Notes under the pieces: generated by a model
The model's database searches: none
The model's input: the letters and a program-made list of their open reading frames with translations, nothing else
What the model was told of the DNA's origin: nothing
Position numbers and translations under genes: made by a program
Source: Oscillospiraceae bacterium
Lineage (GTDB): Bacteria; Bacillota_A; Clostridia; Oscillospirales; Oscillospiraceae
Direction of reading: 5' to 3'
Length of the DNA stretch: 24,805 bases
NCBI GenBank assembly: GCA_015067895.1
Contig: SVLP01000037.1
Span: 1-24,805, forward strand
Shown: piece after piece, positions 4,240-24,805 of the stretch
How the letters are laid out: each line of letters opens with the position of its first letter
Numbering within the stretch: the first letter of the stretch is position 1

Positions 4240-4477
4240 CTGTAGGGTGGGATGATTGCCTGACTCACACAGAAGGGCCAGTTTCAAGTTACCTCTGTCA
4301 TTGCGAGCCCGTCAGGGCGTGGCAATCTCCTGGTAGAATGTTGTAGATTTATACGCATTACCAGGAGATTCCCACGGCCTTCGGCCTCGGAATGACATCG
4401 TAATCGAACACGATTCCTCTAGCTCACACTGGCAGTCATCGAAGCTGATCGGCGTGGGCATGCCACACACCCTACAG
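4240..4477. repeat. TGTAGGG-type composite repeat A
   Basis: A 238-bp element with perfect 10-bp terminal inverted repeats (CTGTAGGGTG at 4240-4249, CACCCTACAG at 4468-4477). It encloses long palindrome A and fills most of the miaB-mutS gap (4233-4535), where I see no gene. The segments around the inner palindrome resemble those around copies B and C, so this is a recurrent element. Confidence 0.72.
4296..4397. repeat. Long palindromic repeat, copy A
   Basis: 102 bp beginning TGTCATTGCGAG and ending CTCGGAATGACA, with inner inverted arms GGCAATCTCCTGGTA and TACCAGGAGATTCCC-like. It can fold into one long hairpin. Three further copies lie at 9803, 12481 and 15083. Confidence 0.88.
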
Positions 4478-9723: not shown

Positions 9724-9802
9724 TTGCCTTCATCATTCTTATCCCCCGGACGGGTACGATGATCACCCATTCAAACCAGAAGGACCAGCTGCCGACTACA
9801 AC

Positions 9803-9904
9803 TGTCATTGCGAGGCCGTAGGCCGTGGCAATCTCCTGGTACGTCGTTACGAATCCCACTGCTGTGGCAGGAGATTGCCACGCCCTTACGGGCTCGCAAT
9901 GACA
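9803..9904. repeat. Long palindromic repeat, copy B
   Basis: 102 bp from TGTCATTGCGAG to GCTCGCAATGACA, with the inner arms GGCAATCTCC and GGAGATTGCC. Flanking sequence on both sides (for example GAAGGACCAG before and TCGAAGCTGATC after) matches that around copy A, so a longer unit was copied, although the outer TGTAGGG ends are not recognisable here. It occupies the mutL to 10008 gap (284 bp); no gene was seen there. Confidence 0.88.
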
Positions 9905-12398: not shown

Positions 12399-12666
12399 CT
12401 GTAGGGCGGGCGGCTTGCCCCCGCCGACCATGCCGGACGATTGCCCGCGTGACAGCAGAAGAGAAAACCAAAAATTACGCTGTCATTGCGAGCCCCAACG
12501 GGGCGTGGCAATCTCCTGGTACAGCTTCAAAATCTGCACTGCTGTGGCAGGAGATCGCCGCGTCGCTCCGCTCCTCGCGATGACAGAGGAACCTTTTACC
12601 CGTAAGCGACTAACCCACAATCCCGGTCATCGTACCGGGTCGGCGGGGTCATGCCCCCGCCCTACA
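12399..12666. repeat. TGTAGGG-type composite repeat C
   Basis: A 268-bp element with perfect 11-bp ends TGTAGGGCGGG (12400-12410) and CCCGCCCTACA (12656-12666). Each end is itself a hairpin (12405-12425 and 12642-12662, GGCGGG...CCCCCGCC). It encloses long palindrome C and fills the hfq-yggS gap (12343-12694), where I see no gene. The sequence ACGATTGCCCG...CAGCAGAAGAG resembles the same position in repeat A. Confidence 0.75.
12481..12585. repeat. Long palindromic repeat, copy C
   Basis: 105 bp from TGTCATTGCGAGCCCC to CTCGCGATGACA, with inner arms GGCAATCTCCTGGTA and GGCAGGAGATCGCC. Closest to copy D, with which it also shares about 55 bp of downstream flank. Confidence 0.88.
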
Positions 12667-14814: not shown

Positions 14815-15065
14815 CCCCCAACGCCATGACGAGGACAAGCGACCCGCCCCCTGTTTTCCAGAGAACTGCCGGTTGGTGCAAGGCAGAAAAACAGCCCGGG
14901 AACCGTATCACCTCCGAGCAGCGGTCTGAATTTCAGTAAGACACGCCGGGTCCGCCCGATACAGCGAAACGAGTGCCGGAAATTTTTCCGGAACAAGAGT
15001 GGTACCGCAGAGGAACGATGCGCCTTTGTCTCTTAATGTAAGGGACAAAGGCGTTTCTCTTTTTG
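14815..15065 (+). promoter_or_regulatory. T-box riboswitch leader of ileS, isoleucine specifier
   Basis: A T-box leader, which senses uncharged tRNA and allows readthrough into an aminoacyl-tRNA synthetase gene. Stem I starts near ATGACGAGGACAAGCGAC, with a distal AGAGAA bulge and apical GGTTGGTGCAAGGC. The specifier is probably ATC at 14907-14909 (in GTATCACC), an Ile codon that fits the downstream ileS. The conserved T-box AGAGTGGTACCGCAG lies at 14997-15010, followed by a terminator at 15021-15053. No clear promoter lies between divIVA and the leader, so transcription may start within divIVA or further up. Confidence 0.88.
15021..15065 (+). terminator. T-box-controlled terminator
   Basis: CGCCTTTGTC (15021-15030) pairs with GACAAAGGCG (15044-15053), extended by four more pairs around loop AATGT, and is followed by a T-rich tract (15054-15064). 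It is the off state of the ileS T-box. Confidence 0.9.
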
Positions 15066-15082
15066 CCCAGCCAAAATCGCGC

Positions 15083-15187
15083 TGTCATTGCGAGCCCCAA
15101 CGGGGCGCGGCAATCTCCTGGTACAGCTTCAAAGTCTGCACCGCTGTGGCGGGAGATTGCCACGTCGCTTCGCTCCTCGCAATGACA
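15083..15187. repeat. Long palindromic repeat, copy D, inside the ileS leader
   Basis: 105 bp from TGTCATTGCGAGCCCC to CTCGCAATGACA, nearly identical to copy C. It lies between the T-box terminator and the ileS start. Flanking matches to copy C run from about 15070 to 15248. The outer TGTAGGG ends are missing, so it is a partial unit. It would form a large hairpin in the ileS mRNA. Confidence 0.88.
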
Positions 15188-15281
15188 GAGGTAGCTTTTA
15201 CCCGCAAGCAACCAACCCACATTCCCGGTCAAAAGAACCGGGTCAAAATCATGTAATATCACAATTGGAGGTAACTTCAAA

Positions 15282-18411: not shown

Positions 18412-18432
18412 CCGAGCTGGGAAAGAGAATAT

Positions 18433-18517
18433 GGGGGAGTTCCCGAGTGGCCAAAGGGGACAGACTGTAAATCTGCTGCGTTTCGCTTCGATGGTTCGAA
18501 TCCGTCCTCCCCCACCA
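18433..18517 (+). tRNA. tRNA-Tyr (GTA), copy 1
   Basis: An 85-nt class II tRNA with a long variable arm. Acceptor GGGGGAG/CTCCCCC, anticodon loop CTGTAAA (GTA), T-loop GTTCGAATC, discriminator A, encoded CCA. A36-A37-A38 marks it as a MiaA/MiaB substrate. It lies 21 bp after tRNA-Thr. Confidence 0.97.
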
Positions 18518-18518
18518 G

Positions 18519-18550
18519 AAAAAAGCACTTGCGAAAGCAAGTGCTTTTTT
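18519..18550 (+). terminator. Terminator of the tRNA-Thr/Tyr unit
   Basis: A perfect 14-bp stem (AAAAAAGCACTTGC, GAAA loop, GCAAGTGCTTTTTT) beginning one base after the tRNA CCA. Confidence 0.95.
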
Positions 18551-18720
18551 CAATGAAATTTGCCCTGCGGGCAAGTGAAGTTCTGCTTCGCAGAATGAAG
18601 TACGCTTCGCGTATGAAGTGTGCTACCGCACATGATGGCAAATTTCACTTCATGTCCGAAGGACACTTCATTGCGCAGCAACTTCATATTGCGTCAGCAA
18701 TACTTCATTTTTCTTCATTT
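18551..18720. repeat. Modular hairpin array 1
   Basis: A run of small perfect hairpins joined by fixed linkers. Left half: TTGCCCtgcGGGCAA, TTCTGCttcGCAGAA, TACGCttcGCGTA and TGTGCtaccGCACA, joined by (A)TGAAG. Right half: TGTCCgaaGGACA, TTGCgcaGCAA and TATTGCgtcaGCAATA, joined by CTTCAT. Linkers and loops of the two halves are reverse complements, and TGAAATTTGCC/GGCAAATTTCA closes the left group into a branched fold. No gene is convincing here. Confidence 0.8.
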
Positions 18721-18753: not shown

Positions 18754-18782
18754 AACCAAGTCTTTCAGACACAACCGAATAC

Positions 18783-18867
18783 GGGGGAGTTCCCGAGTGG
18801 CCAAAGGGGACAGACTGTAAATCTGCTGCGTTTCGCTTCGATGGTTCGAATCCGTCCTCCCCCACCA
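18783..18867 (+). tRNA. tRNA-Tyr (GTA), copy 2
   Basis: Identical in sequence to copy 1, including the variable arm and encoded CCA. Copy, terminator and hairpin array repeat as one unit. Confidence 0.97.
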
Positions 18868-18868
18868 G

Positions 18869-18900
18869 AAAAAAGCACTTGCGAAAGCAAGTGCTTTTTT
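18869..18900 (+). terminator. Terminator of tRNA-Tyr copy 2
   Basis: Identical to the terminator after copy 1: 14-bp stem, GAAA loop, ending in six T. Confidence 0.95.
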
Positions 18901-19060
18901 CAATGAAATTTGCCCTGCGGGCAAGTGAAGTACACCTACGGTGTATGAAGTACGCTTCGCGTATGAAGTGTGCTTCGCACATGGGGGCAAATTTCACTTC
19001 ATAGCGAAGCTACTTCATGTCCGAAGGACACTTCATATTGCGAAGCAATACTTCATTTAT
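18901..19060. repeat. Modular hairpin array 2
   Basis: Same architecture as array 1, with some different units. Left: TTGCCCtgcGGGCAA, TACACctacgGTGTA (in place of TTCTGC...GCAGAA), TACGCttcGCGTA, TGTGCttcGCACA. Right: TAGCgaaGCTA (new), TGTCCgaaGGACA, TATTGCgaaGCAATA; the TTGC unit of array 1 is absent. With the next promoter it fills the gap up to 19131, and no gene was seen. Confidence 0.8.
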
Positions 19061-19130: not shown

Positions 19131-19718
19131 ATGCTTGAATCCCAGCTTGAACTCCTCCGGCAGCGTTCCGGAAAATCCGTCAGCCTCGGCATCACCGAGA
19201 CCGGCGAGCCCCGGCGGTCGATCCCCGTGCCCTGGCAGAGGGACATGAACGCCTACAACATGCGCACTCCCAATGTGTATCTCGCGCCCGGCGATCTGGC
19301 TGACCCTGTGGTGCGGGAGCTGCTGAGCGGCTGCCGGGTGGTGGGGTGCTATGTGTTCTGCCCGATGGCGGACTACGGCTTCCTCTGCGATTTTCCCCGG
19401 CTTCAGGATATCCACATCCGCGGCGGCTTCGCGCTGAAGAGCCTGGAATTCCTGCGCACCATGGAGGACTGGTTCCAGCTGTGCATCTGGGACGCAGACC
19501 TGCCCGATCTGGATGCCCTCTTCCCCGAGGGGGTGCACAAAGGCCTCCACAGCTATTGCGTGTGCTTCAACGGCTGCACCATCGCGGATATCTCCGCCCT
19601 GGAGCGGGAAGATGTCCGGCTGTCGGAGCTGGTGATCCTGGTGCCCCAGGGTGCCCGCCAGCGGGAGCGGTGGCAGAACGTGCGGTGCGGGAAGTACACC
19701 TATCATGAGTACAGGTGA
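19131..19718 (+). CDS. Hypothetical protein, 195 aa
   Basis: I do not recognise a family. The start at 19131 has AAAGG ten bases upstream and a promoter in front. No signal peptide or membrane span is visible. The middle (about 90-170) alternates short beta-like stretches with leucines at regular spacing (LQDIHIRGGFALKSLEFL, QLCIWDADLPDLDALF, CTIADISALEREDVRLSELV), which suggests an LRR-like or beta-solenoid fold, an inference from pattern only. It has six cysteines. The protein ends WQNVRCGKYTYHEYR. It appears to be a single-gene unit; the permease downstream has its own promoter. Confidence 0.75.
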   Translation: MLESQLELLRQRSGKSVSLGITETGEPRRSIPVPWQRDMNAYNMRTPNVYLAPGDLADPVVRELLSGCRVVGCYVFCPMADYGFLCDFPRLQDIHIRGGFALKSLEFLRTMEDWFQLCIWDADLPDLDALFPEGVHKGLHSYCVCFNGCTIADISALEREDVRLSELVILVPQGARQRERWQNVRCGKYTYHEYR

Positions 19719-21251: not shown

Positions 21252-21283
21252 CTCCCGTCCGGGATCCGGACGGGAGTATTTTT
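21252..21283 (+). terminator. Rho-independent terminator of the permease gene
   Basis: An 11-bp stem (CTCCCGTCCGG at 21252-21262, CCGGACGGGAG at 21266-21276) followed by TATTTTTG, just after the stop. Confidence 0.92.
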
Positions 21284-21615: not shown

Positions 21616-24600
21616 ATGAAAAAGATCACAGCAAAGCGTCTTCTGGCCTTCGTTCTGGCACTGGCCATGGTCATCGGCATGTTCCCCGCCATGACCGCCT
21701 CCGCCGTTGAGGAGGAGTCCTCCACCGTCAAGATCGGTGCTGAGGTTCTGCTCGAGAGCGAATACTGGCAGGAGTACCTGAGCGGCAAGAGCGTGGCCCT
21801 GTTCACCAACCAGGTCTGCGTGGATGCCGAGATGAACCACCTGGCCGACAAGCTGGCCGCCTCCGAAAGCATCAACCTGGTGTGCCTGTTCGGCGGCGAG
21901 CACGGCCTGCGCGGCGCTGCCCAGGCCGGCGCAGCAGTTCCCCACTGCATCGACGCCACCACCGGCCTCATCAACTGGAGCCTGTACTCCGGCGGCACCA
22001 TCGACACCGAGGCCCTGGGCATCGCTGCCCTGGATGAGGGCATGGAGAACCCCTCCAGCCCCAACCGTCCCACCCGTGCCATGTTCACCGGCAACAACGG
22101 CAAGTGGTACGAGCCCATCGACGTCATCCTGTTCGACCTGCAGGAGATCGGCTCCAAGACCTGGACTTACCTGTACAACCTGGCTGACCTGATGGCCGCC
22201 TGTGTCGAGGCAAAGAAGTTCTACGGTCAGGAAGTCGAGCTGATCGTGCTGGATCGTCCCTCCCCCATCAGCTCCGATGTGGTCGAGGGCACCATGCATG
22301 CCTCCAACAACCAGACCGGCTTCGCCCGCTTCCCCCTGCCCTCCCGCTATGGCCTGACCATGGGTGAGGTCGCTCTGATGTACCAGGGCGAGGGCTGGAG
22401 CTACTTCTGGCAGAAGACCTATCCCGGCGGCCCCGAGAACCTCTACGGCTCCACCACCTCCCTGTCCAGCAAGACCTACAAGGGTCTGTGGCCCTGGGAG
22501 AACGAGGTCGAGGAGGGCGACTCCGACGAGATCATCGCCATCAAGGAGAAGCTGACCGCCAACTTCGCCGACAAGCTGTCCTTCGCTGACTGCCCCGTCA
22601 CCGTCATCCCCTGCGAGGGCTACACCCGCGACATGTACTGGGATGAGACCGGCCTGGAGTTCATCCTGCCCTCTCCCAACATGCCCACCGCCGAGGCCTG
22701 CCTGGTCTACACCGGCACCGTCTGGTTCGAGGGTCTGCCCATCAACGAGGGCCGCGGCACCACCCAGCCCTTCACCACCATCTCCGCTCCCTATATCACC
22801 GATGCCGATGCTCTGGCTGAGCGTCTGAACGGCTTCGGCCTGGACGGCGTCATCTTCCGCCCCGTCCACACCACCACCCTGTCCACCAACCAGCTGCTCT
22901 CCGGTACCGACTATGTCGGCAAGCTGGCCCACGGCGTGCAGATCCATGTCACCGACAAGCGGGCCTTCTCTCCCATCGAGATGCAGACCTACCTGAACCT
23001 GACCCTGCAGGCCATGTACGGCTGGGAGACCAAGGCCGAGCAGAAGGACGGCGACCACTTCTACTCCCACTACCAGCTGGACTACCGCTCCGGCTCCGAC
23101 TGGGTGTCCGCTGATACCGCCGCCTTCCCCAAGGGCGCTTCCGACGAGCAGATCGTGGCCGAGGCCAACAGAATGCTGGCTCTGATGGACGAGCAGACCG
23201 CTGATTACAAGGTCATGCGCGAGAAGTACCTGCTGGACGAGTACAATGTCCCCGCTGACAAGGAGCTGGTCAATACCCTGGAGCCCCAGGTCATGCTGGG
23301 CGCCGAGGTCTACCTGAAGTCCAATCAGTACGGCCGCAAGATCGCCCTGGTCACCAACCAGTCCGGCGTCACCTCCGACCTGGAGCACATCGTTGATGCT
23401 CTGAACGACAAGTCCGATGTGGAGATCGTCTCCGTCATCACCACCGGCAATGGCCTGCGCGGCGAGTTCCAGACTGCTGAGGACGGTGTCTACACCGATG
23501 CCAAGACCGGCCTGACCGTCTACCGCGTCCACGAAAACGGCATCCCCGCCGAGGCTCTGGCCAATGTTCAGGACATCGTTTTCGATATCCAGGACACCGG
23601 CTCCCGCTGCAACGGCACTGTGGAATTCATGGCCCAGTGCATTGAGGCCGCCAAGGCTGCCGACATCACCTTCACCGTTCTGGATCGTCCCAACCCCGTC
23701 GGTGCTGCCGCCGTTGAGGGCCCCGTGGACACTGCCTATGGCATCTCCACCCGCCACGGCATGACCAATGGCGAGCTGGCCTTCTACCTGGCCAAGAAGC
23801 TGGGCTTCGAGAACGCCGGTGTCGTCAAGATGTTCGGCTACACCCGGGATATGCTGTGGGCCGACACCGGTCTGCAGTTCATCCAGACCGACCGCCGGAT
23901 CGGCGCCGCCGAGGCTCTGCTGACCTACGCCTCCCTGGGCTGGCTGGAGGGCATCGAGTCCGTCTCCTACGGCTGGGGCACCACCAAGACCTATGAGTTC
24001 TTCGGCGCACCCTACATGAAGGACGACATGGTCGATTTCGCCAACGCTCTGAATGAGCTGGAGCTGCCCGGCGTCCGCTTCCGTCTGGCTGCCATGACTC
24101 CCTGGAACAACACCACCGAGCTGGCTGACATCCGCTACCCCGCCGAGGCCTGCTACGGTGTGCAGATGCACATCCTGGACGAGGAGGCCTACAGCGCCAT
24201 CGACACCATCCTGGGCATCCTGTACACCATGAAGGAGTTCTTCCCCGATGAGTTCTCCCTCTCCGAGCAGTTCAACGAGATCGTCGGCTCCGCTGTCATC
24301 GCCGACGGCATCAACAACGACCGCAGTCTGCCCGAGCTGATGGATTCCTACAAGGACGATCTGGCCGAGTTCAAGACCGCCCGTCAGGACTGCCTGATCT
24401 ACGGCGACGAAGCCGAGTCCTATGTGGACTACCTGGTCGACACCATGTCCCTGCGCGACAAGGTCACCCAGATGATGATGGTTGACTTCCGCAAGTGGGG
24501 CGCAACCGCCGAATCTTCCACCGACTTCACCGAGATGAACGACGAAGTCCGCAAGATCATCGAGGACTACAACTTCGGCTCCATCATCCTGTTCGCCAAC

Positions 24601-24805
24601 AACATCAAGGAGACCGAGCAGTCCTTCAATCTGGTCTACGCCATGCAGGAAGCCGCCACCAAGGACGGCGGCCTGGCCCTCATCATCTGCGCCGACCAGG
24701 AGGGTGGCTCCGTCTACCGTCTGGGCTCCGGCACCGCCCTGCCCGGCAACATGGCTCTGGGCGCAACCTACGCCGCCAACGGCACCAAGTACGCCCTGCA
24801 CGCCG
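21616..24805 (+). CDS. Secreted peptidoglycan glycosidase fusion: NamZ (GH171) + degenerate NamZ + NagZ-type GH3, 3' end missing
   Basis: At least 1063 aa, open at the window edge. A signal peptide (KK-ITAKR, hydrophobic core, ASA cut after residue 30) indicates export. Domain 1 (about 38-530) is DUF1343/NamZ, an exo-beta-N-acetylmuramidase family, with GGE95-H96-GLRG, S353PNMPT and E378GRGTT. Domain 2 (about 558-930) has the same fold landmarks (VLDRPNPVG, VEGP, RHGMTNGEL) but has lost these motifs. Domain 3 (from about 935) is a GH3 N-terminal domain of NagZ type, with ICAD1027QEGGSVYRLGSGTALPGNMALGAT. In Bacillus, separate NamZ and NagZ remove MurNAc and GlcNAc in turn from wall fragments; here they are one polypeptide. 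AGAAAGG lies 14 bases before the ATG, rather far. The C-terminus, including the GH3 catalytic parts and any wall anchor, is not visible. Confidence 0.9.
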   Translation, partial: MKKITAKRLLAFVLALAMVIGMFPAMTASAVEEESSTVKIGAEVLLESEYWQEYLSGKSVALFTNQVCVDAEMNHLADKLAASESINLVCLFGGEHGLRGAAQAGAAVPHCIDATTGLINWSLYSGGTIDTEALGIAALDEGMENPSSPNRPTRAMFTGNNGKWYEPIDVILFDLQEIGSKTWTYLYNLADLMAACVEAKKFYGQEVELIVLDRPSPISSDVVEGTMHASNNQTGFARFPLPSRYGLTMGEVALMYQGEGWSYFWQKTYPGGPENLYGSTTSLSSKTYKGLWPWENEVEEGDSDEIIAIKEKLTANFADKLSFADCPVTVIPCEGYTRDMYWDETGLEFILPSPNMPTAEACLVYTGTVWFEGLPINEGRGTTQPFTTISAPYITDADALAERLNGFGLDGVIFRPVHTTTLSTNQLLSGTDYVGKLAHGVQIHVTDKRAFSPIEMQTYLNLTLQAMYGWETKAEQKDGDHFYSHYQLDYRSGSDWVSADTAAFPKGASDEQIVAEANRMLALMDEQTADYKVMREKYLLDEYNVPADKELVNTLEPQVMLGAEVYLKSNQYGRKIALVTNQSGVTSDLEHIVDALNDKSDVEIVSVITTGNGLRGEFQTAEDGVYTDAKTGLTVYRVHENGIPAEALANVQDIVFDIQDTGSRCNGTVEFMAQCIEAAKAADITFTVLDRPNPVGAAAVEGPVDTAYGISTRHGMTNGELAFYLAKKLGFENAGVVKMFGYTRDMLWADTGLQFIQTDRRIGAAEALLTYASLGWLEGIESVSYGWGTTKTYEFFGAPYMKDDMVDFANALNELELPGVRFRLAAMTPWNNTTELADIRYPAEACYGVQMHILDEEAYSAIDTILGILYTMKEFFPDEFSLSEQFNEIVGSAVIADGINNDRSLPELMDSYKDDLAEFKTARQDCLIYGDEAESYVDYLVDTMSLRDKVTQMMMVDFRKWGATAESSTDFTEMNDEVRKIIEDYNFGSIILFANNIKETEQSFNLVYAMQEAATKDGGLALIICADQEGGSVYRLGSGTALPGNMALGATYAANGTKYALHA

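Follow-up and report, generated by a model that had tools for sequence, protein, structure and literature searches.

The gene at the end of the 24,805-nucleotide stretch analysed here (the window; contig SVLP01000037.1 of an uncultured Oscillospiraceae bacterium) encodes one chain in which a NamZ unit is followed by a second, degenerate NamZ unit and then by the beginning of a GH3 domain of the NagZ/YbbD type. As read from sequence, the architecture is thus NamZ, degenerate NamZ and NagZ, and we regard it as probable (roughly 60%) that the product is exported, associates with the surface and works as an exo-acting salvage enzyme, in which NamZ unit 1 and the GH3 domain would be active and unit 2 would be non-catalytic. 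The most interesting feature of the fusion is the conserved degenerate NamZ unit. The gene is a single uninterrupted ATG frame of 1063 codons that is free of stops up to the contig end; a stop between the domains, which the initial annotation had named among the findings that would speak against its NamZ-NagZ fusion, is absent within positions 21616-24804. The parts of the gene are the following:

21616..24804, +: open frame with signal peptide, NamZ unit 1, degenerate NamZ unit 2 and GH3 start; continues beyond the window
21616..21705, +: putative Sec signal peptide, residues 1-30 (MKK...ASA), recognised in the sequence by eye
21721..23250, +: NamZ unit 1, residues 36-545, motif-complete (Pfam; PDB 4k05, 4jja; motif counts)
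21895..21915, +: GEHGLRG motif of unit 1, residue 94
22672..22689, +: SPNMPT motif of unit 1, residue 353
22747..22764, +: EGRGTT motif of unit 1, residue 378
23281..24408, +: NamZ unit 2, residues 556-931, NamZ fold retained, family motifs gone
23443..23463, +: TGNGLRG of unit 2, at the place of GEHGLRG
23887..23898, +: TDRR of unit 2, at the place of PSPN
23971..23985, +: GWGTT of unit 2, at the place of GRGTT
24424..24804, +: N-terminal part of a NagZ/YbbD-type GH3, residues 937-1063, cut by the contig end (Pfam; structures 3bmx, 4gyj, 3lk6)
24691..24765, +: stretch from ADQEGG (residue 1026) through LPGNMALGA (residue 1042)
24535..24804, +: last 90 codons, protein-identical to the truncated end of the GH3-GH3 paralogue P0018

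The Pfam matches are far beyond chance. On the whole protein NamZ_N (PF07075) reaches 309.5 bits in four stretches (cut-off 26.9), NamZ_C (PF20732) 205.8 bits in two stretches (cut-off 25), and Glyco_hydro_3 64.6 bits (cut-off 27), with residues 946-1054 aligned to positions 2-97 of the 316 of the profile. All motifs named in the initial annotation (GEHGLRG, SPNMPT, EGRGTT, ADQEGG and LPGNMALGA) were located. Unit 1 contains the family motifs EHG, SPN, and GRG, which probably form the NamZ active site. By sequence, the nearest solved structures for the NamZ part are 4k05 (E 2.9e-39) and 4jja (8.2e-34), both DUF1343-type proteins of Bacteroides fragilis, of which 4k05 retains EHG and has neither SPN nor GRG. 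The GH3 part matches the YbbD/NagZ structures 3bmx, 4gyj, and 3lk6 with E-values of about 5e-25 and shares DFRxW and DQEGG...PGNMALGA with them, so that Pfam and the structure-database sequence matches together identify the N-terminal domain of the YbbD/NagZ branch of GH3.

The degenerate NamZ unit

Of the NamZ-NamZ-GH3 order suggested initially, the motif-complete NamZ and the GH3 start stand, but the second NamZ is by its motifs not a working copy, and the named NamZ motifs are confined to unit 1. Among the 18 readable tandem proteins (window included) not a single one keeps SPN or GRG in unit 2, and E and H are never present there together. In contrast, H and SPN are retained in all 19 single NamZ rows, GRG in 18 of them and E in 14. 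Unit 2 has conserved residues of its own, namely GWG in 17 of 18 readable rows and, in 14 of them, DR where SP would stand. In addition, the NamZ rows reported by a structure search with a two-unit model cover unit 2, indicating that the fold has been kept. Unit 2 is a NamZ-fold homologue that is, judged by its residues, not classed as a NamZ enzyme. It appears to be an old duplicate, whose role is most probably that of a non-catalytic binding module or a spacer. With its conserved loss of motifs, unit 2 offers an opportunity to test how an enzyme fold is retained after its motifs have gone, and such proteins should not be annotated as two NamZ plus NagZ before unit 2 is checked.

Reality, distribution and history of the fusion

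Homologues were evaluated as the best 120 of 462. Among these, P0001-P0004 align with 82-86% identity at 99-100% query coverage, have lengths of 1709-1788 residues, and each contain NamZ_N, NamZ_C, and GH3. Because the same order is found in these longer chains, the fusion cannot be attributed to the edge of the window, and together with the stop-free frame and the Pfam matches this bears out the initial claim of NamZ and a NagZ-type GH3 in one chain. The motifs KHFPGHGDT..DSH and GFEG(I/V)(I/V)VTDAMNM, which we take to include the Asp-His acid/base dyad and the nucleophile Asp, are present in all four. The GH3 catalytic residues that the initial annotation had expected downstream are therefore found in the relatives, whereas the window's own lie past the end of the contig. 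Along the frame, GC at third codon positions ranges from 0.78 to 0.95, compared to 0.83-0.88 for five other genes of the window, and there is no step where NamZ passes into GH3. A tree built from 18 tandem proteins and the protein of genome G114 unites the five GH3-bearing proteins and P0005 in one clade at 100/100. It requires two changes of the GH3 label, e.g. a gain and, in P0005, a loss. P0006, whose unit 2 is apparently out of frame, was excluded from this tree and from the one placing the NamZ units relative to single NamZ; P0008, P0009, and P0011 were excluded from the latter.

The joining of NamZ and GH3 could be imagined to be an assembly chimera of genes with near-identical GH3 blocks. 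The window protein and P0018 stop at one and the same residue, with 90 identical residues before it, and P0003 and the GH3-GH3 protein P0022 have a common C-terminal half (98% over 769 residues). However, a stretch of 37 GH3 residues with six differences from P0018 separates unit 2 from the shared block, and GH3 would therefore follow NamZ even after a swap within the block. The identical domain order in four relatives of differing sequence and the single clade of the five fused proteins and P0005 also argue against a chimera, and, with all comparisons to P0018 and the relatives made on protein sequences, we consider it very improbable. The joining looks real and uncommon. Since the 90-residue block is identical to the truncated second GH3 of P0018, the contig end is probably an assembly break inside a repeat shared with that paralogue. 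P0018-P0027 and P0029-P0031 have two GH3 matches in tandem, and most of them end in SLH or LRR_5. The second GH3 of these proteins can nearly equal that of the NamZ-NamZ-GH3 proteins, as in P0003 and P0022, and such near-identical GH3 halves suggest domain exchange among surface glycosidases.

The architecture search proposed in the initial annotation succeeded among the listed homologues with P0001-P0004, but not in the genomes: NamZ joined to GH3 was absent from the matches listed for 400 family genomes (at most two candidates scored per genome) and from those of 136 genus genomes (at most three), where all 19 matches were GH3 only at E 1e-60. The family, genus, and order groups overlap, and the family and order counts, both from at most two scored candidates per genome, are lower bounds. 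Tandem NamZ was matched in at least four of the 400 family genomes (G001, G002, G091, and G114) and in at least one of 394 order genomes, this one being the centre genome of the set. G114 has a frame of 3047 residues (L105) with tandem NamZ near the N-terminus and no GH3 match. NamZ_N is found in 85 of 398 phylum genomes, while 3 of 14 control genomes also match. Besides G001, four phylum matches in frames of at least 700 residues are listed, none of them with GH3; L074 is by eye a beta-lactamase-like plus NamZ protein, in L095 NamZ adjoins a separate GH3 gene, and in L078 and L096 NamZ is preceded by an unrelated-looking stretch. A motif scan across 105 loci found no frame longer than 600 residues in which a motif of the EHG type occurs together with one of the KHFPG type. 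Scanning contigs with two short peptide patterns gave ten loci, eight of which matched at 28-33% identity; L001 and L002 match across both NamZ units and have no GH3 part. A plasmid search by DNA gave no match.

Among the other tandem NamZ proteins the C-terminal module is SLH, LysM, or of a further kind, and some have no end module listed. The unfused state is seen in G091, which encodes a tandem NamZ with SLH (P0013) and a separate GH3 gene with an end that is SLH-like by eye. The opposite order is represented by five of 120 listed proteins. P0032 (Halobacillus) and P0241 have the order GH3-NamZ, P0242 and P0243 are shorter pieces of it, and P0318 (Georgenia) is GH3-NamZ-NamZ with the motifs kept in both NamZ units. 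The NamZ units of P0032, P0241, and P0318 group with single NamZ in the tree, and therefore these joinings look to have arisen separately from the window's fusion. In the Bacillus subtilis recycling cluster as given in PMC5061867, nagZ and then ybbC (namZ) are listed last. The GH3-first order may therefore have come from simple gene fusion, and the window's order would need recombination. With the precedents in Halobacillus and Georgenia the NamZ-GH3 fusion is not a first. The titles and abstract openings surveyed do not describe a NamZ-NagZ fusion, which is no proof of its absence in print.

Proposed function

As a multi-domain exo-glycosidase acting on the sugars of peptidoglycan, the gene product would be exported and probably associated with the cell surface. 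NamZ unit 1 would take off terminal N-acetylmuramic acid (MurNAc) and the NagZ/YbbD-type GH3 domain terminal N-acetylglucosamine (GlcNAc), with unit 2 serving as a non-catalytic binding or spacer module. Jointly, the domains would act outside the cell on wall fragments free of peptide and break them down to single sugars, which could be taken up and enter MurNAc salvage. The frame, its domains, the order shared with four longer relatives, the pattern of kept and lost motifs and the clustering of units 1 and 2 are observed; activity, substrate, and surface attachment of the window protein, like the role of unit 2, are what we infer. The protein looks exported, as claimed initially, with a signal peptide by eye, and the C-terminal ends of the relatives are three SLH stretches in P0001 and LRR_5 in P0002-P0004 (in P0002 and P0004 according to precomputed annotation). 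The window protein, whose C-terminus lies beyond the contig, may end in an SLH or LRR_5 module as well. NamZ requires MurNAc without stem peptide, and no amidase domain was found. The substrate is therefore probably peptide-stripped glycan or short fragments, and it is doubtful that MurNAc and GlcNAc are taken alternately and smoothly from native glycan, as the initial annotation envisaged. MurQ scores above cut-off in four of five related genomes; only such matches were counted, as 12 of 14 control genomes match at E 0.001 and five of them above cut-off. In G468, the neighbours of murQ read by eye as AnmK, a kinase of the BadF/NagK type, and a NagZ-type GH3 that lacks a signal peptide, and the genome also encodes a related, by eye exported-looking GH3-SLH protein. 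MurNAc salvage is therefore plausible in this group.

Several observations weigh against this proposal. The missing amidase implies that native glycan would need the prior action of another enzyme. The GH3 catalytic residues and the C-terminus are outside the window, and the catalytic motifs were read in relatives only. With the NCBIfam equivalog PRK05337 (cut-off 207 bits), P0001 (179.8), P0003 (180.1), and the Halobacillus protein P0032 (194.1) all score below the cut-off, as does Georgenia P0318 at 172.5 bits; the window fragment reaches 34.2 bits with only 127 GH3 residues visible. P0005, which ends in LRR_5, has no GH3 although it lies inside the fused clade. The salvage genes were read in genomes other than the window's own, and none of the window genes adjoining the fusion gene was recognised as a recycling gene. 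G051, the closest by MutS (78%) among ten genomes compared, has no MurQ match, but at 1.6 Mb it may be incomplete. G468 has no full MutS match and its nearness to the window derives from the genus search alone; G050 likewise has no full MutS match.

Both NamZ units might be active, the second with altered specificity for another sugar or linkage, which would give the protein three activities. The retained fold and the own conserved residues of unit 2 suggest selection and not decay, and a title in the reference list of PMC10465942 ascribes distinct specificities to NamZ1 and NamZ2 of Tannerella forsythia. However, the loss of SPN, GRG, and the E plus H pair in all 18 tandem proteins, compared to their retention in most single NamZ, makes such a second activity unlikely. 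Somewhat less likely still, unit 2 might be a pseudo-glycosidase retained for a new task, which holds the glycan end and passes it to and fro between the two activities of the chain, exo-muramidase and exo-glucosaminidase, resulting in an alternating exo-degrading machine on the cell surface. Finally, the enzyme could be exported chiefly against the walls of other bacteria, either scavenging foreign debris or attacking. Its export-like features and the SLH or LRR_5 ends of the relatives would fit, and the GH3-GH3 paralogues with the same kinds of ends suggest a set of surface glycosidases. However, exo-glycosidases depend on chain ends, lysis of an intact wall is not expected of such enzymes, and an SLH end would hold the protein on the producer cell. 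MurQ in four of five related genomes fits sugar from own as well as foreign walls and separates salvage from attack only weakly. Attack on neighbours, which the initial annotation had put on a par with recycling, is not favoured over salvage by any of the findings, given the exo-acting enzymes and the murQ cluster of G468, and a role directed mainly at foreign walls seems rather improbable to us. We thus prefer the exported salvage enzyme with a non-catalytic unit 2.

Genomic setting and comparison with known systems

Upstream of the fusion frame there is a xanthine/uracil-type permease gene, followed by a weak terminator candidate:

21252..21276, +: terminator-like hairpin 3' of the permease gene (one found versus a mean of 0.6 in shuffles)

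The remaining window genes are by eye mostly housekeeping (rpsB, tsf, miaB, mutS, mutL, miaA, ileS), and SepF, DivIVA, and others were also recognised. The window MutS points to Oscillospiraceae, since of 120 listed matches only one carries a label, "Oscillospiraceae bacterium" (81%); unlabelled matches reach 93%. A T-box leader lies at 14817-15036 upstream of ileS (96.3 bits, cut-off 93). A direct repeat of 198 nucleotides (96%) occupies 18427-18624 and 18777-18974, its copies being 350 nucleotides apart and each containing tRNA-Tyr and then a Gut-1 RNA (RF01706). The frame at 19131-19718 (195 residues) has no Pfam match. Dispersed palindromic repeats lie at 4296-4397, 9777-9904, 12471-12629, and 15073-15231, with four copies of a 62-nucleotide unit and inverted pairs of up to 97% complementarity, and an IS200-like frame is found at 1962-2513 (Y1_Tnp 21.2 bits, below the cut-off of 23). 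Together they resemble what we take to be REP elements with a RAYT transposase.

In Bacillus subtilis, MurNAc and GlcNAc are removed by separate enzymes. NamZ/YbbC belongs to the exo-beta-N-acetylmuramidase family that is presumably GH171 of CAZy. Unit 1 has the same EHG, SPN, and GRG motifs and the same two-part layout (PF07075 plus PF20732), but in the window it is part of a large exported fusion, together with a second NamZ unit devoid of the motifs. Similarly, the GH3 start matches NagZ (YbbD), the GH3 N-acetylglucosaminidase, and the longer relatives have the dyad and nucleophile motifs, whereas the window GH3 sits behind two NamZ units and the signal is by eye not of the lipoprotein type, YbbD being called a lipoprotein in PDB names. 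The tandem NamZ proteins P0013 (G091) and the G001 and G002 frames are 56-58% identical to P0002 across the tandem part and also combine a motif-complete unit 1 with a degenerate unit 2, but they have no GH3, which in G091 is a separate gene. Halobacillus P0032, P0241 at 67% identity, and Georgenia P0318 have NamZ and a NagZ-type GH3 in one chain like the window. However, their GH3 comes first, Halobacillus has one NamZ, and in Georgenia both NamZ units keep EHG, SPN, and EGRGTT. The finding of both domain types in one chain, in opposite orders and in different lineages, supports the view that the removal of MurNAc and that of GlcNAc belong together.
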